From assembly GCA_020152595.1 (NCBI GenBank), contig JAIGNY010003179.1:312501-376500 (forward strand): a stretch of DNA of 64,000 nt, read 5' to 3'. Positions 9,053 to 60,289 of the stretch are shown here, one piece after another. This stretch comes from Chiridota heheva (lineage: Eukaryota > Echinodermata > Holothuroidea > Apodida > Chiridotidae). The position numbers and the translations under genes were made by a program. Each line of letters opens with the position of its first letter. Positions within the stretch are counted from its first letter, which is position 1. The notes beneath the pieces are model-generated. The model had not been told where the DNA came from. It saw only the letters and a program-made list of their open reading frames with translations, and searched no databases.

Positions 9053-12000
9053 GTAAAGGATCTTAATTTTCACTGATAAGTGATTGCATTTTGTGCTTGA
9101 TATGATTGTAAAGGATCTTAATTTTCACTGAAAATGATTGCATTTTGTGCTTGATATGATTGTAAAGGATCTTAATTTTCACTGAAAGTGATTGCATTTC
9201 TTGCGTGATAATTGATATGATTGTAAAGGATCTTAATTTTACTGAAAGTGATTGCATTTCTTGCGTGATAATTGATATGATTTAAGGATCTTAATTTTCA
9301 CTAAAAGTGATTGCATTTCTTGCGTGATAATTGATATGATTATAAAGGATCTTAATTTTCACCAAAAGTGATTGCATATTGTGCTTGATATTGCTAAAGA
9401 TGCATTTTATCTGTCATCATGAAATTGAAAGAAACTCTCTATTACCCTGCTCTATCCCTATTCATCTACTTTGTTCATTTTTCACAAACATTTTACATAT
9501 TTGTTCTCAAAATGTTTTATTTATATGAATAATTAAAAGGATGTTCATTCCCTCCCCATCCCCTACCCCCCCCAAAAAAAAATGTTTTGCTCCTTCAACT
9601 AAAATCTGTTACAGCCTCATATGCCTCTCCCCATGCTACCGTATAAGTGCCTCCAATGATTATTGTCATTGCCCTCCCAAAGATTTACTAATCATGTTTT
9701 TTTTTTATAGTAATGAATACAAACATGCTTGAAATATATGAATAATGAAAAGGATGCTTATTCCCTCCCCCCCTCCCCTAAAATCAATCATTTTTGCCCC
9801 TTCCCTAAAATCTCTAACAGCCCCTTTGATTATTATCACCCTTCCCCCTTGCTACCGTATAAGTGCCTCCATTGATTATTATCACCCTTCCCCCTTGCTA
9901 CCGTATAAGTGCCTTCGTTGATTATTGTCACTCTTCCCCCTTGCTACGGTATAAGTGCTTCCTTTGATTATTGTCACCCTTCCCCCTTGCTACCGTATAA
10001 GTGCTTCCTTTGATTATTGTCACCCTTAAGTGCCTCCCCCCTTGCTACCGTATAAGTGCCTCCATTGATTATTGTCACCCTTCCCCCTTGCTGCTGTATA
10101 AGTGCCTCCATTGATTATTGTCACCCTTCCCCTTGCTACCATTGTATAAGTGCTTCCATTGATTATTGTCACCCTTCCCCCTTCTACGAGATAAGTGCTC
10201 CATTGATTATTATCACCCTTCCCCTTGCTACCGTTAAGTGCCCCCTTGCTCCCCCTTGCTACCGTATAAGTGCCTCCATTGATTATTGTCACCCTTCCCC
10301 TTGCTACCGTATAAGTGCCTCCATTGATTATTGTTACCCTTCCCCCTTGCTGCTGTATAAGTGCCTCCTTTGATTATTGTCACCCTTCCCCCTTGCTACG
10401 GTATAAGTGCTTCCTTTGATTATTGTCACCCTACCCCCTTGCTACCGTATAAGTGCCTCCTCTGATTATTGTTACCCTTCCCCCTTGCTACCGTATAAGT
10501 GCTTCCATTGATTATTGTCACCCTTCCCCTTGCCACCGTATAAGTGCCTCCTTTGATTATTGTTACCCTTCCCCCTTGCTACGGTATAAGTGCTTCCTTT
10601 GATTATTGTCACCCTTCCCCCTTGCCACCGTATAAGTGCCTCCTTTGATTATTGTTACCCTTCCCCCTTGCTACCGGTATAAGTGCCTCCATTGATTATT
10701 GTCACCCTTCCCCCTTGCCACCGTCCATTATTAGTCACCCTTCCCCCTTGCCTCCTCCATTGATTATTGTCACCCTTCCCCTTGCCACCGTATAAGTGCC
10801 TCCATTGATTATTGTCACCCTTCCCCCTTTATTGCCTTCCCCTTTGTATAAGTGCTCTCCTTTAATTAATGTCACCCTTCCCCATGCTACCGTATAAGTG
10901 CCTCCAATGATTATTGTCACCCTTCCCCCTTGCTACCGTTTAGGTGCCTCTAATGATTATTGTCATCCTTCTCCCTTGCTACCATATAAGTGCCTCCTTT
11001 GATTATTGTCACCCTTCCCTTGCCGTATAAGTGCCTCCATTGATTTTGTCACCCTCCCTTGGTATAAGTGCCTCCATTGATTATAAGAGCCTCCTTTAAT
11101 TAATGTCACCCTTCCCCTTGCTACCGTATAAGTCCATTGATTATTGTCACCCTTCCATTGATTATTATTGTTACCCTTCCCCTTGCTACCATATAAGTGC
11201 CTCATTGATTATTGTCACCCTTCCCCCTTGCTACCGTATAAGTGCCTCCATTGATTATTGTCACCCTTCCCCCTTGCTACCATATAAGTGCCTCCTTTGA
11301 TTATTGTCACCCTTCCCCCTTGCTACCGAATAAGTGCCTCCTTTGATTATTGTCACCCTTCCCCCTTGCTACCGTATAAGTGCCTCTATTGATTATTGTC
11401 ACCCTTCCCCCTTGCTACCGTATAAGTGCCTCCTTGATTATTGTCATCCTTCTCCCTTGCTACCATATAAGTGCCTCCTTTAATTAATGTCACCCTTCCC
11501 CTTGCTACCGTATAAGTGCCTCCATTGATTATTGCCACCCTTCCCCCTTGCTACGGTATAAGTGCTTCCTTTGATTATTGTCACCCTTCCCCCTTGCCAC
11601 CGTATAAGTGCCTCCTTTGATTATTGTCACCCTTCCCCCTTGCCACCGTATAAGTGCCTCCTTTGATTATTGTCACCCTTCCCCCTTGCTACCGTATAAG
11701 TGCCTCCATTGATTATTGTCACCCTTCCCCCTTGCTACCGTATAAGTGCCTCCATTGATTATTGTCACCCTTCCCCCTTGCTACCGTATAAGTGCCTCCA
11801 TTGATTATTGTCACCCTTCCCCCTTGCTACCGAATAAGTGCCTCCATTGATTATTGCCACCCTTCCCCCTTGCTACGGTATAAGTGCCTCTATTGATTAT
11901 TGCCACCCTTCCCCCTTGCTACAGTATAAGTGCCTCCTTTGATTATTGTCACCCTTCCCCCTTGCTACCGTATAAGTGCCTCTATTGATTATTGTCACTC

Positions 12001-15000
12001 TTCCCCCTTGCTACCATATAAGTGCCTCCTCATTAATTATTGTCACCCTTCCCCCTTGCTACGAATAAGTGCCTCCATTGATTATTGTCACCCTTCCCCC
12101 TTGCCACCGTATAAGTGCCTCTATTGATTATTGTCACCCTTCCCCCTTGCTACGGTATAAGTGCCTCCATTAATTATTGTCACCCTTCCCCCTTGCTACC
12201 GTATAAGTGCCTCCATTGATTATTGTCACCCTTCCCCCTTGCTACGGTATAAGTGCCTCCTTGGATTATTGTCACCCTTCCCCCTTGCTACCATATAAGT
12301 GCCTCCTTTGATTATTGTCACCCTTCCCCCTTGCTACCGAATAAGTGCCTCCATTTATTATTGTCACCCTTCCCCCTTGCCACCGTATAAGTGCCTCCTT
12401 TGATTATTGTTACCCTTCCCCTTGCTACCATATAAGTGCCTCATTAATTATTGTCACCCTTCCCCTTGCTACCGTATAAGTGCCTCCATTATTATTGTCA
12501 CCCTTCCCCCTTGCTACGGTATAAGTGCCTCCATTAATTATTGTCACCCTTCCCCCTTGCTACCATATAAGTGCCTCCATTGATTATTGTCACCCTTCCC
12601 CCTTGCTACTGTATAAGTGCCTCCATTGATTATTGTCACCCTTCCCCCTTGCTACCGAGAATAAGTGCATTCTTTGATTATTGTCATCCCCTTTCTGTAT
12701 CAAACTAGGGTTACGACAAATGATTATCAAGTGGACAAGTGCAAGACACAAGGCAGACGAAGAAACAAAGTTCAGTTTCTGACTATTTTGACGGCAGAAT
12801 TTATGACGCATTTTTGTTCCTAATTTTGGACCCTCTTAGATTCAAAGTGGAAAACAGATGCAAATTTGCTTGAAAGACAACTCTCAATGTGGCAAGAACT
12901 ATACAGTAGTATTAACTTAAAGGCGTAGTATTGTTCCTTATGATGTTTTGTTATTTTGATCTTTTTAAAAAAATTCTTTCAGACAAATCTCAACAAGTCA
13001 GCCAAAGCTTGCATCTCAGCTGAAACATGCGGAGTCAATCGAGAATATCCTCAAAGGGGGTGGATTAAGGAGGCGGAGTTTAGCTATAACTCAGGAATTA
13101 AGAAGGTACGGTATACATACACATGGGGAAATTCCACTATTGTAATGTCAGTCACGCAGAGTGGAATAGCCCCCCATTTAACTCTACTTGCTTATCTCTA
13201 CAAGTTTGGAGGATAAATGCATTCGTTGTCAGACATGTACAATTTGTTCTAATTGGTTTAAAGTGTAAATGACGGATGCTTGTCATATAAGTTTGGGGAA
13301 TCACTTTCTACCCCAAACTTTGGTATCATTTACACTGCTCTGTATGGTATGAAATATTGTACTTTAAAGGAAAGTGCTTGAACAAATGATGTCTTCAAAT
13401 GGCCATGGTCATAATTCACATTACATGCATAAAATCACCCTTATATTATCCTGGCAGGGTCCTAGGGGAGTAGGAGGGGCGATTCTGTGCCTGATAACTT
13501 GTATTACATGCATGGAATTGCCCTTGCATTATCCTGTGATGGGTCAGAGAAAAGTAGGGGAAGTTCCATGCCTGGTAAATTGCACTACATGCACAGAATC
13601 ACTCCTGCATTACCCTGGAATGGTTCCAGAGAAACGAAAGGGCCATTTCCGTGCTTGGTAACTTGCATTACATGCATGGAATTATTACCCTTGTTATTCA
13701 TCATATACCCCCATTCCAGGCCTTTTACTTCCCCACTGATCTGTTGTTTTTTTGTTAGCTGATGTTCACTGATTGCTGTCTTTTCTGATTTACAGCCTGA
13801 CGGAAGTTATTCAAGTTCTATACAGCTTGCGTATAGTTTTTATTCTAACTGAGTTACGATGTTTCGCACCGTTTTTTCAGGCTGAAGCTCTCTTTCAAAT
13901 TACCTGTCTTTTACGTGTTCAAATTTGCACTCAAATTTGCAAACAATTCAACTCCTTTTGTATGTTTTCTGCAGCTAAAAAGTGTGAAATCATATTCCTT
14001 TAACACCAAAATTAAATGATTCTTGTCACACTTTCTCTGACCTTTCTTCACACTCTACAGCGTTAAGTTTGTTCTGAAGATGTCAAAGTTCAAAAGTGAT
14101 AGTCATGTGACTACCACCTGATAATAATTACAATTGCATTTGCAATTTCTGTGCGGGGCCCGTTTTATATTTTTGTCAGATCATGGGGATACTAGTAGAA
14201 AAATAATTTGAATTATGCAAAGAAATACAACCATTTATCATGTGACTACCACCTGATGATAAGTACTTTGGAGGGTCCCAGAGAAACAAAGGGGCCATTT
14301 CTGTGTCTGGTCACATCGCACACATGGAATACCCCTCTTATTATCCTGGTAGGGTTTAGAGAAACGAAGGGGCCAATTCCGTGTCCCCAATTTTGTTTAT
14401 ATATGTATAGTAACTCATTATGTCCTTGTAAGTCAAGATCTAATCAATTATTACTGCATTTATAATGATAAAGAATTTGTAGTGATCTAAATCAAAATCT
14501 AATTCTTTCTTCTGACTCTTGCAGAAATCTAAGTGCCAGTAACCTAGCTGCATATTCAGATTCCAACTTATCGATTCGTAAAGCTGTGCCTGTAAGGAGC
14601 TACGATGCTCCGGAATCGGAGAGTGCTGCAGCCAAGCAGTTCTTTGACCAACTGGTCAAGTGTTACTATTACCAGATGACAGATGGATGTGGAAATGCGG
14701 ACTGTAGGAATAAATTTTGCAAGTCCAGTCCAGGTCAGTGTAAGCTTTGTTTTTCGGTACGGTGTGAGAAATTTATGATACCGATGTATTGGTCGGGCCA
14801 GGTTGGTCCATGCTATGATATATTTGTAGGTATACCAAAATAAGTGTCCCACCATTAAAATCTCACATTTTACTTGCATTCATGCAGGTAATCCCCTGCC
14901 CTGTATCCAGGCTGGGTATGCACATGTCTACAATATTGAATGACATGCAAATAGATTAGAGGTGTAGTAGCTAGGTGGGGTCAATTAGGGTACCCCAACC

Positions 15001-18000: not shown

Positions 18001-21000
18001 TTTCAGATTTTGTGTTTGGTCTGATGTTCAGTCAGTTTTTAATTCATGAAATATTTGTGATGTATGACTGCACGAACAGCTCCATCATCTTTATGTAATT
18101 CTTTAAATTTTGAAAAATTTGGGAAAGTCTATTTCTGTTAGACTCAAAAGCGTTGGTCAGAATTTGCTGCAATGCTTTAAAGAACTATGATACATCATCA
18201 AAAACAAAAGATATACAAAAGAAAATATCACTTGTTGCCCTGTGATAGGTACATCACTTAATTTGCATAAACATAAACATGATGTAAAAGTGCTGTAAAA
18301 TTGTATTTACTGTTTAATTTGAACTGGCATATTGGGTGGAGAAAAAATTTTTTTTTACATTGCCTACTAACAGCAAAAATTGAAAGCTTTTCTTGTCTCT
18401 TTCTAATGAATTTTACACCTGTTAGTGTGTATTCTCTTTTGTCGTATATATGTTGAGTTTTTCCATTTATTTTATATGATTTTACCTTTATATATAAACT
18501 TAGCTGTTTAGGGAAAAAGATATCGTCCCATAGATAAATTCAGAAGTGAACCCCGCTGTGCCTGTAACGTTACTTCTGATTTTTGATTTTTCTTATTGAT
18601 TGCAAGAATTATGGGATGTTATCTTTGATCTGTGTTATCTGTGATGTTATTGTTGATCTGTGTTATCTGTGATGTTATCTTTGATCTGTGTTATATGTGA
18701 CGTTATCGTTGATCTGTGTTATCTGTGATGTTATTGTTGATCTGTGTCATCTGTGATGTTATCTTTGATCTGTGTTATCTGTGATGTTATTGTTGATCTG
18801 TGTCATCTGTGATGTTATTGTTGATCTGTGATGTTATCTTTGATCTGTGTTATCTGTGATGTTATTGTTGATCTGTGTTATCTGTGATGTTATCTTTGAT
18901 CTGTGTTATCTGTGATGTTATCGCTTTGATCTGTGTTATCTGTGATGTTATCGTTAATCTGTGTTATCTGTGATGTTATCTTTGATCTGTGTTATCTGTG
19001 ATGTTATCGTTGATCTGTGTTATCTGTGATGCTATCGTTGATCTGTGTTATATGTGATGTTATCGTTGATTTGTGTTATCTGTGATGTCAATCTGGAAAA
19101 TTGACTTTACCATTAGTAAATTGCAGACTGCTTAAAAATTGACTTTACCATTAGTAAAGTCATTTTGAAGCAACAAATTAATCACATCATTCAACAAGAT
19201 TAACTTTGCATCATAACATTGAGGTAAAAATAGTTCTATGCTCATAGTTCATTTTACCTTTTCTCAGCAGCAAAGACAAACAATGCCAGCATTGATTACG
19301 TTTACTACTTATATTATAAAGGATTGCTATTATATTCAGATGTGTGTCACTAAAATACCATGTAACACCTGTGGGAGTAGGTGTTATCTTGAAGGAGCCT
19401 TGGAGAGGTGAAACTGTATACAGTTTTGTGGTTTGGAAAACAAAGAAATATAAAACTTTTGCTTCGACCGGCCCTGCTCCATTTGGGAGCTGGTTGAGAT
19501 GTTCCTGGTTTTGGGCAGAGCCATTTCTGATGGCAGCATGGCAGCATTCACTTCGGAACGTTTTTATGGGATGATACCTTTCCTTTAAGTGTTAACGAGT
19601 CTCATTAACTAATTAGGGTTTTAATTTTCTTTTGTTTCAGAAACTACCTCTGTTCTTCGGTTCGATTTAAAGATCGTGCCTTACCCAAAGATGTCTTCCA
19701 GAGTAAAAATACGAAGTGCAAGCAGTTTCTTCAAAGTTTATATTCTACTTCCCCTTTTCAATCCCTCTTCCAAAATGGAACAGTCCAGGATGGATCCTTC
19801 CTGAAGAAGTACTCATTGGTCAGTCGAATAGATGATGAATATGCAGCGAAACCTCCCATGGGAGGAGCTTCTTTGCGTGCGAAGTGTGGTAGACTGCCCC
19901 TTGGAAAAAGTAGAGAACTTTTTAGTAAAAGCAAGCTGAAACTCGAAATGCCAAACTCGATGTTTGAACAGCCGTTGCGGTCCGGAAGTGTTAACGACCT
20001 TAACTTCTAGCGAAGAATATTTTACGTGGCCTGAAATACAACCAAAACAACAGCATTCTGTGGATATAGCGGATGATCCTTTGTCGGAGCACAGTCACCC
20101 ATGGAGTGGGAGTGGTTATGAGTCAAGGAGCACTAGTGCGTGTGGCAGTGGCGACTCCACGCAGGTACATTTTTCACTGGGTCCAGCAAGGTAAGCTTCT
20201 TGAGATTTTTTGTTTGTTTTACAGTTTGATGAAATATAGTTGTTTGGAAAAAGTTTTGGAATGTTGAAATTAGTTTAGGTGGTGGGCTGACATCTTTAAG
20301 GAGCACTTGCTGAAATTTAAGGACATATTATACTGGAGTCTCAGGTAGTGTTCACACTAAGATTCGATTAGGGGGGGATTTTCCCCTTGTGTAAATTTTG
20401 GGGGAATTAAAAATGGGAGGATTTCTTTTTGGAAAAATACCAAAAAAAGAGTGGCCAAAATAACCAAAAAATACCAAAAGGTGCCAAAATTTGGCTGAAA
20501 AAATGCCAAATTTGGCATTTTTACCAATTTATTATTATTATTTTTTACAGGAAATTCCCACCCTTTAATTATTTTTGAGGGGAATTTGATAATATGTCCG
20601 TGAATCTCGCAATCTTGCACCTTAATGTGAACACTGGTCTCAGGAATATTTGAATACACTTTTCTTACCCGTAATACCACTGATAAATTTTGATATGAAT
20701 GTGATGTTCAGAGATATGAATGTAATGTTCAGTGTTATAAGTGTAGCTATGAAAATACAAATTATTCTCTAAGTTTTTTTCCTTTTCCACCCAGGTCCCG
20801 TAGCAGTCTCGGTAGTAACACTGCTCTTGGGTCCGCATCAGAATATTTAGCTATGGACGTATCCCCACCCCAGATTCATTTCCCGTACTAGACCCAAGCA
20901 CACCTCCATTACTCCAAGTCCCCAACCCCCTGCCACCCCTCGTCGCCTTCTATCGGAACATGAAGCGCTAGAGGAGACGGATGATTTACGAGAGTTTGAA

Positions 21001-24000
21001 CGAAGTCTTTCCATTGAAAATGCTGTGAGCAGCGAAACAGAGTTTTCATTGACCCACCTTACACTGCCAATGCTAAAGGTAGGTCTCACATTGACCCACC
21101 TTACACTGCCAATGCTAAAGGTAGGTCTTACATTGACCCACCTTACCCTGCCAATGCTAAAGGTAGGTCTCACATTGACCCACCTTACCCTGCCAATGCT
21201 AAAGGTAGGTCTCACGTTGACCCACCTTACCCTGCCAATGCTAAAGGTAGGTCTCACATTGACCCCCCTTACCCTGCCAATGCTAAAGGTAGGTCTCACA
21301 TTGACCCACCTTACCCTGCCAATGCTAAAGGTAGGTCTCACATTGACCCACCTTACCCTGCCGATGCTAAAGGTAGGTCTCACATTGACCCGCCTTACCC
21401 TGCCGATGCTAAAGGTAGGACTCACATTGACCCGCCTTACCCTGCCAATGCTAAAGGTAGGTCTCACATTGACCCACCTTACCCTGCCAATGCTAAAGGT
21501 AGGTCTCACATTGACCTGCCTTACCCTGCCAATGCTAAAGGTAGGTCTCACATTGACCCACCTTACCCTGCCAATGCTAAAGGTAGGTCTCACATTGACC
21601 CACCTTACCCTGCCAATGCTAAAGGTAGGTCTCACATTGACCCACCTTACCCTGCCAATGCTAAAGGTAGGTCTCACATTGACCCGCCTTACCCTGCCAA
21701 TGCTAAAGGTAGGTCTCACATTGACCCGCCTTACCCTGCCAATGCTAAAGGTAGGTCTCACATTGAACCACCTTACCCTGCCAATGCTAAAGGTAGGTCT
21801 CACATTAACCCACCTTACACTGCCAATGCTAAAGGTAGGTCTCACGTTGACCCACCTTACCCTGCCAATGCTAAAGGTAGGTCTCACGTTGACCCACCTT
21901 ACCCTGCCAATGCTAAAGGTAGGTCTCACATTGACCCACCTTACCCTGCCAATGCTAAAGGTAGGTCTCACATTGACCCACCTTACCCTGCCAATGCTAA
22001 AGGTAGGTCTCACATTGACCCGCCTTACACTGCCAATGCTGAAGGTAGGTCTCACATTGACCCACCTTACCCTGCCAATGCTAAAAGTAGGTCTCACATT
22101 AACCCACCTTACCTTGCCTATGCTAAAGGTAGGTCTTACATAACAGTTTGTGACGCACACCATTTATTCTTTTAAGTTATTTTGAAAAAATTACACCTAT
22201 CTGGCACTATAACAACTTTTTTTAGACATTAGACATCGATTTATATAGCGCCTTTTGTCAGGGCCTCAAAGTGCTGGACCCAGTTAGCCACCGAATAAGC
22301 TCTTTGGCAACTAGACCGAATCAGCACACAGGAACTTGGGCTTGACTGCACCAGGATGGGAAGTAAATGATCCCCGTGTTTTCACGCTTCTCTTCTCGAA
22401 TAGTGTTCAGAGAACCAGGCAGGGTGTGACTGTCCTACTATCAGGACCGACGGCTTAACGTCCCTTCCTAAGGACGGCGAGCGCCATTCAACCATTGTCA
22501 CTTCTCTCAACAGCTGAATGGGGGAGCAGGAGCTGCAAATGATGTACTTCCGCTTCAATGTTCCGTGTCTCTGCATAGCTGTGGAAAAAAATGAGTTAGA
22601 CCTGACCAAAGCTTCAAGCCTTTGCTGTCGACATGTCTCTATGTACAATATTCATACATACAAATTTCAAATATTATAAACTTTGTGACATCATGAGTGG
22701 ATGACAACCATTACTACAAATTTGTTATCTCTCTCTCTAATCACTTAACTTCTTTTGCATGATTTGCTGTCATATCTCATTAATCAATTAATCAATCAAT
22801 CAGTCTGTCAATCAGTCAATCAATCAATCAAATAATCTATTAATCAATATCATTGTTCATTTCATTTTCAGAGTGCAATTTTGCAATACCAGGAGTGCAA
22901 CGATAATTCCTTTCTACTGAACACAATCAGGACGGTTTTTACATCTTCAGAATCACTGAATTCAAGTTTTAAGGTAAAGATCTTGGTTTACATTCCATGT
23001 ATACCCGAAAAGGGTTCAGGCTTTTACTTGAGGTGTGCTTGGGCTAGTAGGGGTAATGGGTCTGGGGTGGGGATAAGTCCATAGCTTAATATTCTGGATG
23101 AGGACCCAAGGGCAGTGCTACTACCGTGGGTCCTGGGTGGAAAAAGAAAAAGAACGGAAAGAATAATTTTTATTTTCATAGCTACACTTATAACACTGAA
23201 CATCACATTCATATCACTGAACATCACACTCCTATCAAAATTTATCAGTGGTATTACGGGTAAGAAAATTGTATTAAAATATTCCTGAGACCAGTGTTCA
23301 CATTAAGGTGCGGGATTGCGAGATTCACGGAAATATTGTCAAATTCCGGCTTAAAGATAATTAAAGGGTGGGAAATTCCTCAAAACATTGATAATATTAT
23401 TTTCCTGAAATCACTTTTGATTCATGTGCCTATTAGTATTGGTATAAGCAATAACTATTTTTTTTTTTTTTTGGAAGGGGCAGGGGAAGAAGAAGGGGGA
23501 ACCTTGAAACACACAGAAATCTTGTTATCTTTTACAAAAATATCAATTTTCTAGTGCTGTTGAAGTATTTCTCTTTATCTCCTGATCTGTTTGCTGAAAT
23601 CTTAAGAACAAAAATTAATAGGAAAACTAAAATGAATCAAAATGTGATATTTTGCAAGCAAGGTAAAAGCAAATTAATTCAGAATTTGGAAATTGTTCTG
23701 TTTTCCAAACATTGTAATGGGAAGCAATTTTTAAATTCAATCTTCTTGTTCAATCAATTCATTCAATCAATCAATCTGCTTCAGATTATATATCTTTAAA
23801 ATAAAGGGAGCCGTAACAAACCTCCAATGAAAGCTAGCAGGAATTCCATACAAATTGCATGTCCATTAAGACATTCAATCAGTACCACCTTCCCCATCAC
23901 ATGATCAATTTTTGTTGGGTTAAATGTTTAATTCAATCTATACTCGGGCCAAGAAGGCTCATCAGGCTGCTGTGAGAGCACATAGCTCTCCCTGAATAGC

Positions 24001-27000
24001 ATGCCAGTTCATAGCAGGTTAACCCCCCCCCCCGCCCCTTCCCCCAGCAGTGATGGTACTCATTTTAGAGCTAAGTTTACGGAGCAAGTAGAGTCTTGCT
24101 TAAGGACACAATGCAGCTCCGCGAAAAAAGTCGAACCTGGTACCTGCCCCATGAGCATATAACTATACTTAGTCTCTGTACCTCATAATTTCTGTTTGGC
24201 GCATTGCACTTATTATGATGAACTATCTGGGCTGGCGCTATCATGTTCGTTGTTGCCTTCACATCATATTCACTTGGTTGGTGCCACGTTACTTCCAGGA
24301 GAAGACTATTTACTGGAGTAAAAACAAAGCTTTGTATGTTACGGAGAACGATAAGTCCATATGTGTCTGCATGTGGTATGCAAAGTTGGACAAAATATTT
24401 ATGATTGCAAATTCTTAGCTAAACTCCATTTTCACAAATTAGATGCTTCGTTAGTTGATTGTGCAATTAAGAATAACAATGAATTGAAGTTTATATATAT
24501 TTTTACGGACGATCGGACAATGTATGCTTTACTGGTACACCTGCTGGGTAGGCATGTTTAACACACCGTGGTTAAAATTTGGGTCAGTCACAGAAATTTC
24601 AAATTTACAAAAACTGTGATATATATTTACCAAAAACTCAGCAAAGCGATGCCACATTTCCCGAACCGATCATCATACGTTGTCTGAGAGGCAAATTTGT
24701 GCCATAAGTGGTTAAAATTTGGGCCTACCATGCTGCGTATTGCATATGATAGGTAAACAAACACAGCTGATTGCTTTGTTTTTACTCCAGCGGCATGCAG
24801 TTACTATGCGGTCTTACGACCTCTGGTCACGTATCCAACCAAGTGAATAACACTTTCTTACACTCCTTATATCCAATTCTGATAGGTCGATGAAAGAAGC
24901 AGTCTCAGCCTTGTTGACCTCCAGGTCGTTCGAGAGGCCTACAAACTCTTGATGACGTTGCAACCTATCAACACGTTCTTATCGGTGATGACCAACGCCA
25001 TAGAAATCTTGCTCATGAATCTGAAGCGGAGTACGCTGGAGTCCAACGAAATCAACCAGGTTAGTCAGAAGTCAAAAGTTCAAATTTTTCACCACTTTTC
25101 CATGAAACATTACTTTCCTAACAAATACTCTTCTAGACCAGTTTTCATTGTTCCAATGTTTTCCAATGATATTAAATTGGACTTAATATATGGTAAAACT
25201 ATTTGTTTTGTTAACATGCCCTTGGAGGTACAGTAGCTACGTATGTCACATTTTAGTAGGCCTACATATTTGGTCTTCACAAATGAAAAAGCATATCGAC
25301 ATGATTGAAAGCGTTCAGAGAGCGACTTAATTAATTTCATTATTATCGCATCTACTGTATCATATCCAGAGCAACAAGCCAAGCAAAACCTACCTACATT
25401 GACATAGGAGGGCCAGGGGTGATATGATTGAAGTATATAAGATCATGTCCAACATCTATGATCCAGCTGTGACCAAGTTCTATACTATAACTAGAGGCTC
25501 AAAATCCAAAACGATTCTACACCCATACTATCGCACAAGTGTTTGTCACAATTTCTTTTCTAACTGTGTTTGTAAACTTTGGAACCCTCTACCAGTTGTG
25601 GTGATGGATGCTAATAACCTGAACATTTTCAAAAACAGATTTGATAAGCATTGGTGCAAGCGAGCATTACGACAGCGACACAAATGAGCTTTCAACTCAG
25701 ATTTACTACGATCTGGACCTTTAGGCAGCAAGCCTTTCATCCAGAATTCATCATAGGTATATACATGATGTGAACATACTGTATATTATCCACATTCAGT
25801 TGTGTTCAGGCACACACATACAAGCAGCCTGGTTCTGGCAATTGCTGGCAATGTGTTAATAGTAGTAGACAAGGATTGACAGGGATCAGTATATGTCAAG
25901 GATTTGACATGGTGTCACTCAGATGAGGCCAGGCATGTCCACCTCTTCAGAGCTGCGACAGGGGTGAAGTTAAGGTCCAAATTCCAGTCATGGACTTGCA
26001 CAAATGGATTTGGCAATGAAATAGTTTCAAATTCAACCCATAGCCATGCATGGTTTAAATAAACCTCCTAGTTTGTTCCAGTAAGAGGCAGGGTGGCACT
26101 GAGTAAAACAGGCATTTATAAGGAATCTAGGGCACTTTGAGGGCAAATTTAAGGGCACTTAAAATGTAAGTAAAGGAGTAATCAGTATCCAACAAGTAGT
26201 GTCCCTGCATGTGCTTGTACTGGGGAACTGTAATCAGCATCAAAAGAAGGCAAGTTAGTTCTCAAAAGTATATATTTGTGAACAAAATATAGAGTGCCTA
26301 GGGTGGAGGCAATAAGGAGCAGGGTGGAGGCAATAAGGAGCAGGGTGGAGGCAATAAGGAGCAGGGTGAAGGAAAGGAGCAGGGTGGAAGGAAAGGAGCA
26401 GGGTGGAGGCAATAAGGAGCAGGGTGGAGGCAATAAGGCAGGCAGGGTGGAGGCAATAAGGAGCAGGGTGGAGGCAGGCAGGGTGGAGGCAAGCAGGATG
26501 GAGGTAATAAGGAGCAGGGTGGAGGCAAGGAGCAATAAGGAGCAGGGTGGAGGCAATAAGGAGCAGGGTGGAGGCAATAAAGGAGCAGGGTGGAAGGAAA
26601 TAAGGAGCAGGTGGAGGCATTAAGGAGCAGGGTGGAGGCATTAAAGAGCAGGGTGGAGGTAAGGGTAAGGAGCAGGGTGGAGGCAATAAGGAGCAGGGTG
26701 GAGGCAATAAGGAGCAGGGTGGAGGCAAGGAGCAGGATGGAGGCAATAAGGAGCAGGGTGGAGGCAATAAGGAGCAGGGTGGAGGCATTAAGGAGCAGGG
26801 TGGAGGCAATAAGGAGCAGGGTGGAGGCAATAAGGAGCAGGGTGGAGGCAATAAGGAGCAGGGTGGAGGCAATAAGGAGCAGGGTGGAGGCAATAAGGAG
26901 CAGGGTAGAGGCAATAAGGAGGATGGTGGAGGCGATAAGGAGCAGGTGGAGGCAATAAGGAGCAGGGTGGAGGCAATAAGGAGCAGGGTGGAGCGCCCCT

Positions 27001-30000
27001 CTGAAAGCAAAACTAGGGGTCTGGGTTATTCGGGCCTTCCTAACACACATGGTATATTTTAAGGGCTAGTGGTCTAATCCATCAGTCAATCAACTTCTGT
27101 TTCTTTCCTTTATGACTGTAGATATTCATTTTACTCGAAAACCCCCTCTTCCCCACCAAGCCAGAGCTGATTCTGGTGCTGAGTGAGGTACTTGCCAACT
27201 GTCTTTCAGAGGGAGGCAGGATGGTGTTTGTAAAGGTCCTGTCATCTTATCAGAAGGAGGACTTCCTCAGGCTGCTACGAAGCTTTAAAAGTTGCCTCAG
27301 TGCATCCATGAAACCTCAGCAAAGGTAAGTTTTCCACTTATCTTTCTGGTATCTTCTTTTCTGAGTTGTGATTGGTTGAAAGGGGGACACATCCCTTATT
27401 TGAAGAGTCCATTATTCTTTTGTATTTACTATTCATTCACAGGTGGATGTTTTACTGAAATGTGAATGGCTGAGAGCTCACCCCCTAATTTGCATAGGCC
27501 ATTATTTAGTTGTATTTACTTTTCATTCACAGCCGCATTTGTTGTCTGAAATGTGATTGGCTGAGAGGTGACACCCCTAATATGCATAGTCCATTATTTA
27601 GTTGTATTCATTCACAGCAGGATTTGTTTGCTGAATTGTGATTGGCTGAGAGGAGGCACACTTCTAATTTGATTAATTCACAGCTGGATTTGTTTTCTAA
27701 AATGTGGTTGGCTGAGAGGGGACACGCCCCTAATTAGAATAGACAGTTATTATGGTGTATTTACTATTCATTCACAGCTAGATTTGTTTTCTGAAATGCT
27801 GTTGGCTGAGAGGGAACACACCCCTAATTAGAGTAGACAATTATTCTGGTGTATTTACTATTCATTCACAGCTAGTTTTTTTTTCTGAAATGTGATTGGC
27901 TGAGAGGGGACACACCCCTAATTAGAATAGACAATTATTCTGGTGTATTTACTATTCATTCACAGCTAGTTTTTTTTTCTGAAATGTGATTGGCTGAGAG
28001 GGGACACACCCCTAATTAGAATAGACAATTATTCTGGTGTATTTACTATTCATTCACAGCTAGATTTGTTTTCTGAAATGTGATTGGCTGAGAGGAGACA
28101 CACCCCTAATTAGAATAGACAATTATTCTGGTGTATTTACTATTCATTCACAGCTAGATTTGTTTTCTGAAATGTGATTGGCTGAGAGGGACACACCCCT
28201 AATTAGAATAGACAATTATTCTGGTGTATTTACTATTCATTCACAGCTAGATTTGTTTTCTGAAATGTGATTGGCTGAGAGGGGACACACCCCTAATTAG
28301 AATAGACAATTATTCTGGTTATTTACTATTCATTCACAGCTAGATTTGTTTTCTGAAATGTGATTGGCTGAGAGGGGACATGTCCCTTAATTTGCAGTCC
28401 ATTATCCTGTGATATATGGACGTTGCTAAGGTTAATCAATGAATAGACATATGTAAGTTCCATAACGACAAGATGTAAGTTCCATAACGACAAGATGTAA
28501 GTTCCATAACGACAAGATGTAAATATTTATTATATTTTCAGTTTGTTTTATTCCAACCAAATAAATGAAAATGAAATATATGATTCAACTAACATCTTTA
28601 TTATTCCAATAAATTGATTGATCAATTCAAAATATAATATAACCTTTGACCAATCCATTCTTTTTAATCAGTTCAATTCAGTGTTATCCTTTTTATCATA
28701 CAGGTGTGGGGAGGAACTCTTGAATCTTGCCAAGTCTATCGCACTGTTTTACAAAGCCAGTAAAATAGCTACGAAGAAAAATAATGCTCCTCTTGTCACC
28801 ATTGAAGATTTTACAGCGAAGAGCTGTGCAGGTAGGAAATCTTCCAATATCCCATCCGTTTACACCAAGGGGTAGGGGAGGGGAGGGGGAGGGTGGTTGA
28901 AGAATGAGTGCTTACCTCAAAAATGGAGAAAGAAACATTGGGTATGTAGAAAAAAACCCAATGAATATTGTTTTTAGATTGAATGTGACTCACAGTTATA
29001 TTGATTGCTGTGTTGAATGAAATATTTACTGAGGCTGAACAACGCTGCAATGTCATTCATTTTATCACGCTCATTCTGATTGGACAATACTTCTTGCTTG
29101 GTTTGAATTCTCAGGAATCTGGATTACACTGAGGAGTATGAGTTTTGGAGCAATGTACCAAAGGGAGCCACCAGTCAGCTTTCAGTCTTAGACTTTCCAT
29201 TCTTACTGGACCCGACTGTAAGTATCAAATTGAATTCTAATGTATGTTTTTATCGCTAACGGAGACATAAACCCAATATTTTGAAGTTGATTTGTTATGC
29301 ACATGAAATTTGTTTTCCTTCGTAGATTAAACCAATAATGTAGTATACGATGCCAAGGAGAAATAATTAAACAAGTACAACAGTTTAAGTACTTGGGCCA
29401 CACACTAACATCAGATAGTCGGTGTATTAATGAAGTTAGAAAACGCATTGCAATTGCCAAAGACATATTTACAAAAATGAATCCAATTCTAAAGAATAGA
29501 AATATTGGAATGGACATGAAAGTCCGTGTCTTGAAGGCATATGTATGGTGTACTCTTCTCTATGGCTGTGACTGCTGGACAATTACCAGTGACGTCAAGA
29601 TTAGAAGCTACGGAAATGTGGTTCATTAGGAGAATGTTGAAAATATCTTGGACAGAAAGGAAAACAAATGATGATGTCCTGATAGCTTCAGGCATGGACA
29701 GGTCCCAACTCAATGCCATCAGAAGGAGACAGATGGAATTTTTGGGCATGTTTATCGAGAGGGTGGGATGGAACAGTTTGCAGTATGTGGGAAAATTGAG
29801 GGCAAAAGAAGCAGGGAAAGGCAGCGAGTTAAATATGTCCAAAGCTTAAACAACTGGGCAACCAACAACAGCCTAAGTAACAATAAGTTTATGCATTTAG
29901 CTCTAAACAGAAGTGACTGGAGGGCCATGATCGCCAATGTCTGTTCCATGCAGACTCAGCACCTAGGAGAGAGAGTTTAAGGTTGCTAAGATTACTCATC

Positions 30001-36000: not shown

Positions 36001-39000
36001 GGTTGGTATATTATAAATACCCTTTCTAGATTCAGTGTTACTACTTGTTGACATATCCCATGGTTTTTAAGCCACAAAATTGCAGGACAAAATATGATAG
36101 AATACAAAAAGACTTTGAGGAATCTGAGGCTATGACATCACAACTAGTCTGATTTCAGTCGTTTCTACTCAAAATATAACAAACTTTATACTTAGATATC
36201 TCTTTTATAGAATAAATTTTTTGAATGCTTTCTTCACTATTTTGTTTCTTTTAAACTCCTTTCTCATGATTTGCTTGACCCCTGACCTAATCCCTTATTA
36301 ATGTATGCACATCAAGCCTTTTCTATATTGTTTGAAAGAGTGTTAGATTCTGAGCTGATACAGTTTTGATTTTGTAAAAGGCACTTTTAGTTTTTGAGTT
36401 AGGCTGATCAAGGTTTTAATTTATGCAAAATTTGTGATGTATGACTGGGTGGACAGCTCAATATCTTTATTTAATTATTTCAATTTTTTTCGTAAATCTT
36501 AGACACCTGGATATTATGAGAAAGTCTATTTCTACTATAATTTGATTGGCGCTTCAAAAACATTTGATCACAGTGCTTATTTGCTACACCCTTCAAAGCA
36601 TTGTGATAGACATTTTAAGCACAAAGGATTTAGAAAAGAAAATAACAAGGTTGCCCTGTAATACATCAAAAAATTTGCATTAAATATGCAAATTGTTGCC
36701 TGAGATTTAAAAACGCTGTAAAGGGGTGTCAAGGTTCAATCAATTTTAAAGAAATTTTTTTGCTACAATAATGATTTTTGATAGATTGTCATTGCTGCCC
36801 CTACAAGTCCACATATCTTTCTAAGCAATAGTTGCTTTCTAAGCAATAGTCAAATCCAATTATTTCCCCGATAAATTAATGAATTATTTTCTTTTGTACA
36901 GGGTTTAGACATGGGCGGATTACAGAAGGAGTTCTTCCAGCTGATTGTGGAGTCCGTCTTTGATCCAAGTCACGGCATGTTCATGTGCAGTGACGAGACA
37001 AGACTGGTGTGGTTCAGCAGTGAGTCGAATACATACAGTTATAACATATAGACTTAGATAAGAATGTAGTCTTTGTGGCATTTGCGTGTTTCTATGCAAT
37101 TGTGATATATTGCGACAATATATATTTTAACATAGTTTTGAAGTAAATATTCCATAATTGGTTGTAAGTAGTAAAACTCTGTCCTGCAAACCTTCAGTGT
37201 AACTTGAAACCACACCGACACAACTCAAGCAGTGTTAAGACATGTGGTAGCATAGCAAGATTAGTTTTGAAAAGGAATGATATTATATTTTAGCAATTTA
37301 AAATCATCAGATCTAATAACTAGAGTTTCCTAAAGATCAGGTTGCAACATCTTGAGCTGAAGTGGAAGACAATATGTTATTTATAAACTATTACAAATAG
37401 TGCATTTTTCTTTCACAATGTACAGGTTCGTCCCTTGAACTCAACAAGGAGTTCGAGGTGGTTGGGATTATTCTTGGCTTAGCCATTTATAACGGCGTCA
37501 TCTTAGACATCCACTTCCCGAAGACCTTGTACAAGAAGCTTCACGGTCTGGAGGTTGACCTCGGTGACCTACAGGAAGTACAACCTGCACTTGCTCATGG
37601 ACTCAAGGTAGGTGCACCTTTTTTTGGTTTGATTCATATCTTACAAGATTTGAAACAAATCAGTACATAGTAGTGAATTTCACAAGTTTAAAAACCACAA
37701 TGAAGTTTTTCCTTGATTACTTTTCAGATAAGTATTCAAAGGATTATTTCCGTGGTCAGAAATATCCATCATGAATGATAAAACTACTTCAATATCTCAT
37801 TCTGTTTGGGATGTATCAGGTTTTAAGCTTGTGGGAGAATGAGCGGTGTGTTTAGTCTATGATGTCACACTCTCAATCTGTAAATAAATGTGATTGTATT
37901 TTATTGGAAATTATTTCAAAAACCAGGTATTTTGTTAACATGGACATTGTGCAGGTAAAAATTACAACACAATTCAACATTGTGATTGGTCAAAATATTT
38001 ACAATATCACTGACACGCCAATCATTTACTGCTGCGTAGGTGACGCTAGTATGTTACGGATTCATTAGTGAATGGTCAAAATATTTACACAATCACCGAC
38101 AAGAAAATTATTTTAAAGACCAGCTATTTTCTTAAAAGGGACAATGTGGAGATAAAAATTACAATACAATTCAACATTGTGATTGGTCAAAATATTTACA
38201 CAATCACTGACACGCCAATCAATTACTGCTGCGGAAGTGACGCTAGTATGTCACGGATTTATTGGTGATTGGTCAAATTTTTTACACAATCCCTGAAAAG
38301 CCATTCAAATACCGCCACAGAAGTGACATTACTAATTTTTTTTTCTTCCTCTTTTTCAGGAATTATTGGAATTTGATGGTGATATAGAGGAGATTTTTTG
38401 TCAGACATTCCAAGTTTCATATAACGCCATGGGTCATCAGGTCACGGCAGATCTGAAAAAGGATGGATCCCTTATACCAGTAACGCAAGAGGTAAGGAAC
38501 TTCATGTCAGACTTTTTCTGAATGAGAACAGTACACTCAAAAAGAAAAAAAATGCCCCACTTAGTTACCCAGATTTTGTTGCTATGCAAATTCATGCGGT
38601 GGTTGGTTGAAAAAACTGTCAATCATCGAACTCAGATATGTTAATTGATAGGGAGGGCGTGTATTTTGTAAGACATGAATGGCCAGGAAATAGTTCATTG
38701 TTGATTGAGCAATGTCAGGATGATTTGATAATGTATAGATGTGTCAGCCTTTATGTACCTGTGGTTTCGCATTGGGAAATTTTCAAAAAAATGATTAATG
38801 TGACTACTTTTGAATGAAATTCTTAAAAGGGATATGATTATATTTCTCTCCTTGTAGCGAAAAGTTGGATCAAACCCAGTGTTCTCTGTAAATGACTATC
38901 ACTTTTCTAGTATAAACATGAAACTTATGTTCTTAAAGGAATATTCCGGGATTTTCCTGTTCATATATATATGATAGAGAACTATTAAAGAAACACATTG

Positions 39001-42000
39001 GTATACAAATTATGTTGATATCTTATTCCGTTTAGGAGTTACTGCATTTCAAAGATTGCACCAGTGTGTTGAAAAGTGACCTCACAGTGTACAGTGTGAT
39101 GTCATAAAGGAAGATATGAGGATGAAAATTCACAGGAATATTCCTTTAATGTAATTCTGTAAATATTTTCCCACACATTCAACCACTGATGTTGTTCAAC
39201 CATCTTTCGTATAAAATTGTAAAATGGGCTAGGGCTAGGGTATGGCAGGGTTTAAAATAATGTTCGTCATTCTTCACCATAAGCCTAATGGCTCATTGAC
39301 GCACTTCTTAAGACCATGGGATGAAGGTGAGTTGTGGTGGGTTGTGGACTGAGTCTAACATGACTTGTCGCAGCAGTCAAGATCTGGCCCAGTTAATCCA
39401 CTCCATTTTATTAAGCTGTCAATCCATCTTGCAAGGGGGCGACCAGTAACTCTCTTGGTACCTGAGGAAAGCCCGCACATCAAAATAATGTTCATCTCAT
39501 GTAAATATAAGAGTCGACTTCAATCATTGAGACTTTTGTGGCGTGATATATTTGCATATTTACTTGGAATATCCAGGCCTAAGAATTGAAGAAAAGCTGT
39601 AAGATTGTAATTATTTACTTTTAGATAATATCTTGGTATGTTATTTCTAGGTGTCATGTCTTACCATCGTTCGAAACCTTCAAGAAGTAATTCAATTCTT
39701 AAAAATTATCCTTGCATTGTAAGAAACTTTGGATTTATTTTCATATTTCTCATTTGGCAGAACAAGGAGGAGTTTGTGCAGCTGTACACCAAATACATCC
39801 TAGTGACCAATATCAGCCGTCAATTTGAGGTGAGGCTGCTTTCATGTTTTATTTACTTCCAGATATTTTCTTACCTGGCTATATCTCCTGCCAAAGTCAG
39901 GAAAGCATGCGAACAATACGAACCTCGTTCACGGAATGCCTTTCATCTCAGCGATGCCTTGAATCAATCATGAAAACAAAAACAAAAATCAAATATGGAA
40001 AATGTTTTTCACAACATGAATTACATGCATTTTGAAGGCTAAAAACCATAAGCAGGCCCCTGGACTCCACGCCGTTATGGCTTTTTGCTTCCTAAAAAAC
40101 TAACGGGAACAGCAGCCATTCTTTATTTATGTTTGTAGGAACAGTTATGGGTGGAGGTGGAAGGAGGGGGGGCATGACTTCTGGTACCACTGGCTTTGAT
40201 TAAACATGAAGAGTTGTTTCACAGTTTAAAATACTTGATCAAATACAATCTAATTGTCAGCTTTTTTATCTATTTATTCGATTAACTAAAAGTATTAAAA
40301 TGAGCTCACTGATTGTACATTTTACCGACAGGCCTTTGCTCAAGGTTTTCATCGTGTCTGTGGTGGACCTGTCTTGAGCCTCTTTCATCCGACAGAGACA
40401 GAATTGCTGGTTTGTGGTATGGAGGAGCTGGACTTTAAAGCATTAGAGGATGGGGTGACCTATGAAGATGGTTTTAACAAGTAAACAAAGCAACTTACAT
40501 TATCTTAGTAAAGGCTTTCCAGTTTTTCTCGTACTCTTATGTGGGTGGGTGTGTATGTGTGAGGCGAGGGAGGGGGGTGGGTTGGGAGTAAATGATGTCA
40601 TGAATTTTATAGACAGCTACATTCAACTTTATGCTAATTAAAAAGGTTTCCATTTCTCGTTGCACTGTGATTTCCACAATTTTTGTTTGTTTTTCTGTGT
40701 GTGTGTATGCATTTGTGTGAGCTTAGAGAAAGAAGAGGGGGGAGGGGGTAAATAGATAAATGGCATACAAATTTAGATATCTGTATTCAGAATGATCGGT
40801 CTTTTCATCTAGATTTGAAACTACAGAATTTAGAGCCATGTTCGGATGCATATAGGATCCCTCTCTGTCCATATATCTTAAAAGTTGCATAATCATCATG
40901 CATTTTGATCCTTTTCACAGGGAGCATAAGACCATCATTGGGTTTTGGAAGGTGGTGCATGCAATGACAACGGAGCAAAAGAAACAACTACTGCGTTTTA
41001 TCACCGGGAGTGCCAGGGTAAGGCATACAACCTTTGTTTTAACATCATTAAAACAGTGGCGAAGATAAGCTATCGAGGGGGGTGGTGTCAAAAATAAAAT
41101 AAAAATATTTTTTTATGCAAACAGTAGGTCAATCGGAGTTGGAATTATTTATTTCCCACGGTTCCGTGAATAAAGGTGTCAAAAATCTTCCCACGAAAAA
41201 TCGTGACAGATATAATATTACTGTGGTGAGTACATCTTTATATGCTCCCTCTTTCGGAATTTAATGTACTTTTGATTGCACAACTACTTTGGGGACGTTT
41301 TTAGAGCACATAATTACCACATATACTGTTGTTAGAAATTTTAAAAATTACATTAATTTTCTTTTAAATTTTTGTAAAAATGATTTTTGTTTCTTTCTGG
41401 GAATTTTGATTTTCCCTAGCTATAAACGCCGAAACTGTGTTTTTTTTTCCAGCTCCAAGGTCAGTTATTTTACACAATCCCCTCAAGTTATTACTCTCCG
41501 ACAAATTCAATTGTTGTATGTCACAAACTCTCAGGAAATCATTAGTCTTAAACCTCGCAATACATTCTCTGTCTTAAGCCCCGACAAAACCTCAAATCTG
41601 TGGGGTCTATTATTGCTCGCAACAGAAACCACAATCCAGCACAAGCAATTACACCAGGGATTTCTTATTTCTACAATGCACACACTTTACCTCACTTTTC
41701 ATGGTCACAACCTGACATTGATAGTAAACAAATTTCACTGCAGCTGCACTGACTTTTTCACTCACTACAAGGACAAAAGTATTCCTCTGTGGTCAAAGAG
41801 TCTGGCTTGAAGTAATAATTTACAAATATGACGGTATTTTACAGTGAAGGTTTTGTTTGTTTATTAATAAGTGAATTTAAGTGATGTTTTTGTCCAACCT
41901 TGTATGCTTGGAGGACTTTTTAGACTCAAAATTTATTGCGACAGATTTTCATAATGTATGTCACTAAATGACATACATGAATGTAAGAATATCTGGTTTC

Positions 42001-56324: not shown

Positions 56325-57638
56325 TTAAGACCAATCACAACCTACTTCTATCATTTCATTGCTGTCACGTCCCAAAGGAAATTGGAATGTTGTCTGGGAT
56401 GAACTTCGACTTCCACCTCCCCAGCTTGCGTTTGGATTCAGAGCTTTTTGCATTTCCTGTTGAACGTACGAGCCAACATGTGTTCCTTTCTTCTTAGCCG
56501 TTTCAATTGCAGCATTGGCGACAGAAAACACAAACTTCTCAGCCACATCCATTCCAACTTTGTCAGTTGTCTTCTTGGTGGTCTCTCTCCTTGGCATCAG
56601 GAGACTGTCGCTCTTTGTAACTCTAGTTGTGAAGTTACAAGGCCTAGGGGTGAATTCCTGTGTATGCCACTCTGGCTGTGGTCTGAAAATGGAACCGTAG
56701 TCTGGTGTTACGTCATCTTTATGCTCCTCAAGTCGTCGAAGGGTCTCCTTCGCAAATGGGATCATCTCTCGGATATGCTCATCATTTCTGAACGGCCGTG
56801 ATGACAGAAGGTTATTGTACGGATTTGTTGGATCAAGTAAAAATGGTCGTCTTCTTATTTCCGGCGGAACATCATCTTGTTGGTATAAACCGAGGTTGTA
56901 CCATTCTACATTCAATTGATTTGGATTCTCCACCATTCGCAAGAAGCGTGAGAATGCACTTAGCATATCGCGGTTGCCTCTATTTTCCTCATCCTGTGCC
57001 GCTTTTACCCCAAGATACTCCATGATACACGATCGTTTTTCAAACTCTGCGACGTAAACTGTCATGCTCCAAAATTTTGCCATACGTGCCACAGAATGGG
57101 CAAAAGAACTCTGCTCTTTCTCAAATTCAACTGCTGCCTCAGATAAACCTGTGCTGTACTTCCAAGCAATGTCCATGGGTCGAGTTGATCTCTGAATGAG
57201 TTCAAGTGTCCGTTCATGCTGTACCCTCCATGTCTCTTGTCCCTGACTTCCTGGTGGCACCATATTTTTGGCTGCTAATAGGTCAAAGTCAGTTTTGCCA
57301 TCTACCTTGAATGAGATGCATCTGTTTTCATTATTCGTTGCCTCCTCGTCTATGTGCATTATGATGACATCTTCAAAATCATCCATGACGTCATCAAATG
57401 GGAGATTACAGTCATTGAGATAAACGATGATGTCGACATCCATTTTAATGCGAAGCGATGCTTTCTTTCCATAGCTGCCAAGGGGTTTAATGCGGTCGAT
57501 GTGTTTTTTCTTCTTACTGTAAGTGTGCAAGACATCAGTCACCCTCTTAATTGCTCGTCCCACCTCCTGCTGTAGAGCATTACTTGGTGCTTGGTCATCT
57601 GCATACTCTTGTAGGTACTTGCTTAATGGCGGTGCCAT
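56325..57638 (-). CDS. 2'-5'-oligoadenylate synthetase (OAS)-like nucleotidyltransferase
   Basis: OAS enzymes are activated by double-stranded RNA and make 2'-5'-linked oligoadenylates from ATP as antiviral signals. The product from MAPPLSKYLQ is 437 residues (human OAS1 p46 is 400). It shows LGSYGKKASLRIKMDVDIIV (residues 53-72), with the GS motif and first two metal-binding aspartates D67 and D69; TDFDLLAA with the third, D119; ARMAKFW, like the RLVKHW helix; and RRPFLLDPTNPYNN, like the OAS ILDPADPTNN motif. A Ser/Gln-rich tail follows from about residue 400. All catalytic residues are kept, so activity is likely. I start at 57638 because a good acceptor (TTGTTCCTTTTCAG) ends just upstream at 57675, so the longer frame to 57740 is read-through. 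The coding region is one exon. It runs toward the UBE3A-like gene. Confidence 0.9.
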   Translation of the reverse strand: MAPPLSKYLQEYADDQAPSNALQQEVGRAIKRVTDVLHTYSKKKKHIDRIKPLGSYGKKASLRIKMDVDIIVYLNDCNLPFDDVMDDFEDVIIMHIDEEATNNENRCISFKVDGKTDFDLLAAKNMVPPGSQGQETWRVQHERTLELIQRSTRPMDIAWKYSTGLSEAAVEFEKEQSSFAHSVARMAKFWSMTVYVAEFEKRSCIMEYLGVKAAQDEENRGNRDMLSAFSRFLRMVENPNQLNVEWYNLGLYQQDDVPPEIRRRPFLLDPTNPYNNLLSSRPFRNDEHIREMIPFAKETLRRLEEHKDDVTPDYGSIFRPQPEWHTQEFTPRPCNFTTRVTKSDSLLMPRRETTKKTTDKVGMDVAEKFVFSVANAAIETAKKKGTHVGSYVQQEMQKALNPNASWGGGSRSSSQTTFQFPLGRDSNEMIEVGCDWS

Positions 57639-57676
57639 GTTTGTATTGAGACAGGTCGTATGGTTCAGGGGAGTCT
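57639..57676 (-). other. 5' UTR of the OAS-like gene with splice acceptor
   Basis: On the minus strand a pyrimidine tract and CAG end at 57675, followed by ACTCCCCTGAACCATACGAC and the ATG at 57638. The upstream untranslated exon and promoter were not identified. Confidence 0.65.
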
Positions 57677-57743
57677 GAAAAGGAACAAAATCAATACATT
57701 TGTATGTACTTTGAGATATGAAACCAAATAAAGTCAACATATT

Positions 57744-59868: not shown

Positions 59869-60282
59869 CAGTGGCATAGCTAGTCTTTTTTACAGGTGGG
59901 AGAAGCCATAAGCTAACCCCCCTTCCCCCTCCCTCGGTTACCGGAAATTTTGGGAAAAATCGGAAGTTAAAGGAAAAACTTAAGACATTTTGAGTAAATA
60001 TTTTGAAGAAAAACTGAGTGTATATAAGAGGAAATCCTTCAAAATTTTGAGGAAAAGTAAGATGTTTTGAAGAAAAACTTGTGGCAGAAATTTTTAGGAA
60101 ATGGGGGAAAAGAGCGGATAAATTTGAGGAAACACTGGGAATTTTGAGGAAATTCCTCGGAAAGTTTGTGATCCATTTTCTCAAGATGGCTACAGTAATT
60201 GTGCAATTACCCCGAAGTTTGGGAAATTTCCGGCCGGAGAGGGGCAATTGCCCGTATCCCTCGCCCCTCTAGTACGCCACTG
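59869..60282. mobile_element. Possible hAT-type element (TIR CAGTGGCRTA)
   Basis: CAGTGGCATAGCTAGT at the left is mirrored by AGTACGCCACTG at the right. The flanks GTCACATG and CACACATA share five of eight positions, so a target duplication is possible but degraded. The interior is AT-rich with repeated TTTTGAGGAAA-like strings and no coding frame of note. Confidence 0.5.
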
Positions 60283-60289
60283 CACACAT

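Follow-up and report, generated by a model that had tools for sequence, protein, structure and literature searches.

Within the window (the whole stretch of DNA analysed here, 64 kb, C3076:312501-376500 of a genome whose genes point to an animal) the border between a coding exon and its intron, splice donor included, has been amplified into 26 tandem units of 42 bp in a UBE3A-like gene. Such an in-frame amplification had been proposed in a first-pass annotation of the sequence and is real: TRF reports an array at 21047-22141 (period 42, 26.1 copies, 96% match, 0% indels) and a unit table resolves 26 full head-to-tail units with no indel. We put the probability at about one half that the array is a coding minisatellite, derived from the exon-intron border of a UBE3A-like paralog and translated at least in part. 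This reading, drawn from the DNA sequence, leans on the variants that distinguish the units, which are synonymous more often than expected in the frame set by the exon. The features are located in Table 1.

Table 1. Features of the UBE3A-like gene and of the array within it (window coordinates).
Feature	Position	Strand	Basis and remarks
Exon, first half of AZUL zinc-binding domain	14525-14733	+	Pfam AZUL 36.7 bits, profile 1-31 of 59; acceptor by eye
Exon b, upstream exon	19641-20190	+	Donor AAG/GTAAGC; ORFs 19609-20010 and 19940-20194 in different frames
Exon 6 up to first donor	20874-21078	+	If acceptor is 20872-20873; acceptor table; translation FISRTRPKHTSITPSPQPPATPRRLLSEHEALEE...
Array of 26 units of 42 bp	21047-22138	+	Exon end, donor GTAGGT and intronic bases; coding frame VGLTLTHLTLPMLK
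First (intron-distal) donor GTAGGT	21079-21084	+	Unit table
Last (intron-proximal) donor GTAGGT	22129-22134	+	Read-through past donor meets TAA at 22141-22143
Exon 7	22872-22973	+	Phase 0 start (SAILQYQECNDNSFLLNTIRTVFTSSESLNSSFK); collinear with human UBE3A, ungapped, weak (3.5 bits)
Next exon after exon 7	24886-25059	+	Frame and splice signals by eye
Further exon	27122-27324	+	Frame and splice signals by eye
Stretch with HECT exons, including TAMTCFN and C-terminal end KGFGLS	37401-44513	+	Pfam HECT in two ORFs scanned

The array and its proposed origin

Each unit comprises the end of the coding exon (CATTGACCCACCTTACCCTGCCAATGCTAAAG) followed by GTAGGTCTCA from the start of the intron. On the left, unit 1 continues into exon sequence (…GAGTTTT/CATTGACC); on the right, the last unit continues into the intron (GTAGGTCTTA/CATAACAG). 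The unit had been described as 30 exonic plus 12 intronic bases, which matches, but the register slides by 2 bases (CA before TTG also matches) and a division into 32 exonic and 10 intronic bases describes it equally well. Across the 26 units, 27 cells differ from the consensus and represent 14 distinct variants, and neighbouring units have variants in common beyond expectation (5 shared, permutation P = 0.03). A pattern search of the 1.1-Gb genome with up to 3 mismatches finds at least 25 places, every one of them inside the array; unit 26 has 4 mismatches and falls beyond this search, whose repeat counts are lower bounds. A dispersed origin of the 42-bp unit was rejected, as at this level of mismatch the unit is found only in the array. 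Searches of the genome, represented by one assembly, found neither a second haplotype of the locus nor a close paralog copy.

The breakpoints at the two ends of the array, read from the unit table, have CAT in common, which fits slippage between short direct repeats. We propose that slippage from a CAT triplet in the exon to another 42 bp away, just inside the intron, would have duplicated the exon end with its donor, and that more local slippage, to which the flanks and the variants common to neighbouring units point, would have brought the number of copies to 26. Because 42 is divisible by 3 and the unit is free of stops, the frame continues across the added DNA as VGLTLTHLTLPMLK repeats. 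Each added copy would contribute 14 codons and shift the old splice border downstream, while the last copy would always restore the native residues ahead of exon 7. The array is probably variable in length between alleles; protein length would then be set mainly by the copy number of the allele, and donor choice might vary it further.

The host gene

The gene had been named UBE3A, and the assignment to this family stands. Like UBE3A (E6AP), it encodes an AZUL domain followed by a HECT domain, the latter scoring 49.6 and 77.4 bits (Pfam) in the two ORFs scanned. The HECT exons are open and have human UBE3A as their best match among solved structures; the TAMTCFN segment presumably holds the active-site cysteine. 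A motif search did not find the second half of AZUL. The block split by the array aligns with human UBE3A without a gap (LTHLTLPMLK/SAILQYQECNDNSFLLNTIRTVF), with a score that is weak when taken alone (3.5 bits).

The name itself belongs to another gene. A genome-wide AZUL search gives 77.7 bits (profile 2-59) on contig C2052 versus 37.8 bits at the window gene. An uninterrupted open frame of 445 residues runs across the array-equivalent site on C2052, and a 420-residue query taken from it matches human UBE3A over 417 residues (362 bits, middle region). As the C2052 gene is by far the better match, sequence comparison identifies it as the UBE3A ortholog and the window gene as a divergent UBE3A-like paralog, with an intron where the ortholog keeps the block in one frame. 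This difference may reflect either gain or loss of an intron, since the C2052 gene also lacks the neighbouring introns of the window gene. A second copy of the paralog was not found, its middle block matching only itself in the genome; the next best genome match of its last exon is the C2052 gene (59% identity over 39 residues). The ortholog occupies about 68196-90281 (-) of C2052 and has large minisatellites in and around it. Downstream of it lies an array of 30-bp units (about 60260-62095) with a 355-residue ORF that is nearly all repeat.

Two features of the gene model are less orderly. Exon b contains two long open frames that overlap at about 19940-20010 with one frameshift between them, which may be an assembly error or a real lesion and is a point against translation of the array. 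At exon 6, the most pyrimidine-rich acceptor (20793-20794) leads into stops and is unusable in the exon 6 frame because of a TAG at 20848-20850. Exon starts at 20874, 20892 and 20919 all fit the phase of exon b and have similar pyrimidine counts. Taken with a middle region barely recognizable against human UBE3A (3.5 bits), the frameshift and the stops could mean that the paralog is decaying, or the assembly faulty, and that the array has no consequence for any protein. We regard this as improbable: the HECT exons are open and retain the TCFN segment, in-phase acceptors exist (the first at 20872-20873), and the synonymous excess described below lies in the exon frame.

Reading frame and variants among the units

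The first-pass annotation held that the frame is open through every unit and that splicing from any of the 26 donors would be in frame, and both statements are borne out. The frame VGLTLTHLTLPMLK runs through all 26 units (ORF 20851-22143). The coding part of each unit ends in AAG (AAA in unit 25) immediately before GT, and exon 7 opens with a whole codon at 22872 (SAILQYQ...); with exon 7 in phase 0 and the coding part of the unit ending on a whole codon, every donor joins in frame. Since the exon end is itself part of each unit, native residues would flank the junction in every isoform. The further statement that all 26 units keep GTAGGT is true of GT (26 of 26), whereas the exact hexamer is present in 25, unit 9 (21383) reading GTAGGA. 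Unit 25 (22055) has A for G at position -1.

A run of 26 near-identical units exceeds chance. A preserved frame and preserved donors, although present as described, are weak evidence of function. The array was compared with 19 control arrays; together these are the 20 TRF rows, one for each array, with a period of at least 18 that is divisible by 3 and at least 5 copies, all remaining rows having been set aside before counting. The sequence covered comes to 155 kb, made up of the window, 13 fetched loci and 50 kb of C2052. The argument that an open frame through 26 units implies function was rejected, as three of the six frames of the array are open and nine of the 19 others have one or more open frames. 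The lack of indels is likewise a weak sign of selection: four of the 19 control arrays are also indel-free (one of these has no variants at all), and the control arrays when pooled have 106 gaps to 536 substitution cells. Nor was extra constraint found on the nine donor positions, where two of the 14 distinct variants fall and three are expected (P = 0.40).

The nature of the variants is more informative. Read in the exon's frame, 10 of the 14 distinct variants are synonymous, compared with 36 of the 126 possible single changes (binomial P = 0.0011; stratified by transition and transversion, 0.0033; matched for type of base change, 0.0029; hypergeometric, 0.0005). By a cruder count, third codon positions hold 9 of the 14 variants (P = 0.017), and a rough dN/dS among the units is 0.16. 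All four non-synonymous variants fall within one Thr-His codon pair. Omitting unit 26 gives P = 0.007 and omitting units 1, 2 and 26 gives P = 0.016. The other five frames of the array have 4, 2, 4, 2 and 7 synonymous variants out of 14, the frame with 7 being on the minus strand (P = 0.025). The 15 control arrays that carry 8 or more variants supply 90 control frames; six of these reach P ≤ 0.05 and not one reaches P ≤ 0.005, indicating that the test behaves as it should. This count uses the 21-bp unit of one control array (L003); with a 42-bp unit the same array gives P = 0.0050, in a frame with stops.

An excess of this kind in the exon frame is what would be left if the units were translated and weeded at the protein level, and it suggests, within a small sample of 14 variants, that they are translated and constrained in this way. 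As in coding minisatellites, the unit is a multiple of 3, the frame is open in the phase of the exon and the differences among units point to constraint on the protein. Translation would be at least partial and would be achieved most simply through the last donor or another late one. A translated array would illustrate how a splice border, once amplified, can turn intronic DNA into protein.

The data can also be read as an ordinary bystander, an intronic minisatellite in which the first donor alone is used, 25 units are intronic, and frame and donors persist through youth and homogenisation. We treat this as a possible but tentative explanation. It is in keeping with how common arrays are in the window (68 TRF rows in 64 kb), with the control arrays that are open in at least one frame (9 of 19) or gap-free (4 of 19), and with donor positions that have no special conservation (2 of 14 variants, 3 expected). 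Against it stands the synonymous excess, which occurs in a frame preset by the exon (P 0.0005-0.003) and is unmatched in the 90 control frames.

Donor choice, precedents and surroundings

Scored with a donor matrix, 24 of the 26 donors, which are identical over 9 bases, reach 5.9; unit 9 scores 4.3 and unit 25 scores 2.6. Five other donors placed in the window gene range from 3.5 to 8.5, and the 24 array donors exceed three of them. Elsewhere on the + strand of the window, 9 of 3558 other GT sites score as high as 5.9 (0.14 per kb). Constructs are the usual means of studying how identical 5' splice sites compete; a natural row of 26 almost identical in-frame donors could reveal how position alone decides their use.

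Among equal 5' splice sites the intron-proximal one tends to win; under exon definition, short exons are preferred. Counted from the acceptor at 20872-20873, exon 6 would be 205 nt long if it ended at donor 1 and 1255 nt long if it ended at donor 26. Given the preference for short exons, the length of the last-donor exon is a point against full retention of the array and counts against the translated-array reading. Full retention would insert 350 residues into a block that is ungapped relative to human UBE3A, a further point against it. A late donor may be favoured, by the synonymous excess and the intron-proximal tendency, or the first donor, by the shorter exon and by analogy with the human CBS repeat considered below.

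Use of many donors would turn the array into a splice-length dial, one allele giving a set of isoforms that carry between 0 and 25 additional units, perhaps under tissue-specific regulation. The geometry is what makes such a dial possible: every donor joins in frame and 24 of the 26 score equally, above three of the five other donors of the gene. The available parts of two published accounts describe comparable behaviour, namely regulated choice among competing 5' splice sites, which SRSF1 and hnRNP A1 push in opposite directions (PMC5585400), and alternative splicing from repeats at exon-intron borders (PMC2812944). A dial is nevertheless unlikely here, as the donor positions have no extra constraint and folding predictions leave every one of the 26 donors mostly paired, with just one of them, the weakened donor of unit 25, opening about as easily as ordinary GT sites do. 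The fuller version, in which selection keeps both the frame and the amino acids so that one allele yields a graded protein family with 0 to 25 modules of 14 residues through the 26 donors, is doubtful to a similar or slightly greater degree. If true, donor choice, and not the length of the allele, would determine how long a UBE3A-like ubiquitin ligase is.

The predicted pairing involves a repeat arm, each donor pairing at -10.8 kcal/mol with the next unit and at -9.8 kcal/mol with its own. At the 150/100 setting, the predicted opening of the 9-base donor is 1e-7 to 3e-6 for the first, last and internal units and 2.5e-3 for unit 25, the latter within about tenfold of the median of 300 random GT sites (1.7e-2). 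The donor at 27325 of the window gene is also fairly closed (1e-4), and 8% of shuffled units are closed to the same degree as the array units. As donors at both ends of the array are closed alike, structure gives no graded choice among them. RNA hairpins were accordingly rejected as a donor selector, the first, last and internal donors all being occluded apart from that of unit 25, and these predictions gave no evidence of selection on the hairpins either. By eye, the units find no support as acceptors in recursive or intron-breeding splicing (the AG follows AA and the pyrimidine tract is weak). AlphaFold2 run on the array frame without an alignment gave a beta-strand repeat, with a best pLDDT of 70.9 and 37.7-53.5 for the other four models, and was not relied on.

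The 26 donor sites that one transcript offers are a small number next to the U1 of the cell. The first-pass annotation had also suggested a decoy array that titrates U1, and a decoy might equally block splicing of the intron and so control the output of the gene. The density of sites speaks for it (26 donors in 1.1 kb, 24 at full score, versus 0.14 per kb elsewhere on the + strand of the window). We consider a decoy very unlikely and found no support for it: the synonymous pattern indicates translation rather than sites kept for U1, and 26 sites per transcript are a small number for titration. The same synonymous excess, a point against a mere decoy array, fits an ordinary coding repeat as well as it fits a dial.

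Lievers et al. reportedly studied the 31-bp VNTR of human CBS in 2001. In the available part of a further account, this repeat (c.1444_1467+7(16_21)) has 16-21 copies of a unit that by its name comprises 24 exonic and 7 intronic bases; the units are always 31 bp, differ by single substitutions and are polymorphic in people (PMC2630376). As described there, the CBS unit resembles ours in joining an exon end to the first intronic bases, with the donor region in each copy (PMC2630376), and the present array is likewise a tandem unit across an exon end and donor in many copies. As 31 is not divisible by 3, the frame in CBS shifts with the donor chosen, whereas 42 bp keeps it; and the CBS array is known to be polymorphic whereas ours is known from one assembly. 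Interpreted literally, the name of the CBS variant suggests that the first donor is used in the reference mRNA, which counts by analogy against late-donor use here and favours an intronic bystander.

Repeat arrays at exon edges thus have precedent, to the extent covered by the sources available. In human paralogs, internal tandem repeats within exons encode amino-acid repeats, and those at exon-intron borders can alter splicing (PMC2812944, Genome Biol 2009). Our array is similar in lying within a duplicated gene at such a border; in the portion of that study at hand the human cases have transcript support whereas ours is known from DNA, and a donor in every one of 26 copies sets ours apart from them (PMC2812944). 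What distinguishes the array from its precedents is the combination of a unit divisible by 3, donor choices that are all in frame and a protein-level signal.

Zhuo et al. are said to have treated intron gain through tandem duplication of AGGT segments in 2007. Such duplication is a recognised route of intron gain in the parts of two papers available, which include fission-yeast genes with repeated 24-bp AGGT segments and introns across 4 or 2 copies (PMC3443670, PMC4974935). The present unit also contains AGGT; in the systems described there, however, the copies supply both donor and acceptor, whereas here the acceptor of exon 7 is separate and ordinary (PMC3443670, PMC4974935).

The surroundings of the array are rich in repeats. 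The minisatellites of the window include a 2.4-kb array of 46-bp units at 10250-12686. A dispersed repeat (22228-22400, the right end being where the query stopped) starts about 90 bp past the array, and has 39 other copies, with 80-87% identity, among the 40 scored of 964 candidates. An inverted repeat of about 370 nt (20519-20894 and 23041-23410) brackets the array and exon 7. Its longest arm is 206 nt with 92% complementarity, and 330 of 376 arm bases pair across in the predicted fold. One arm covers the last part of the preceding intron and the first part of exon 6, with the acceptors at 20793-20794 and 20872-20873. The outer part is a dispersed repeat; for the inner part, the scored candidates gave matches at these two places and nowhere else. 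The inverted repeat could affect splicing, editing or the formation of circular RNA. Away from the array, a 472-residue stop-to-stop ORF at 56325-57743 (-) is a candidate OAS/cGAS-like nucleotidyltransferase, with matches that are all weak (SMODS 26.1 bits, cut-off 26.5; OAS1_C 21.1 bits, cut-off 19.9; 2'-5'-oligoadenylate synthase 1 22.3 bits).
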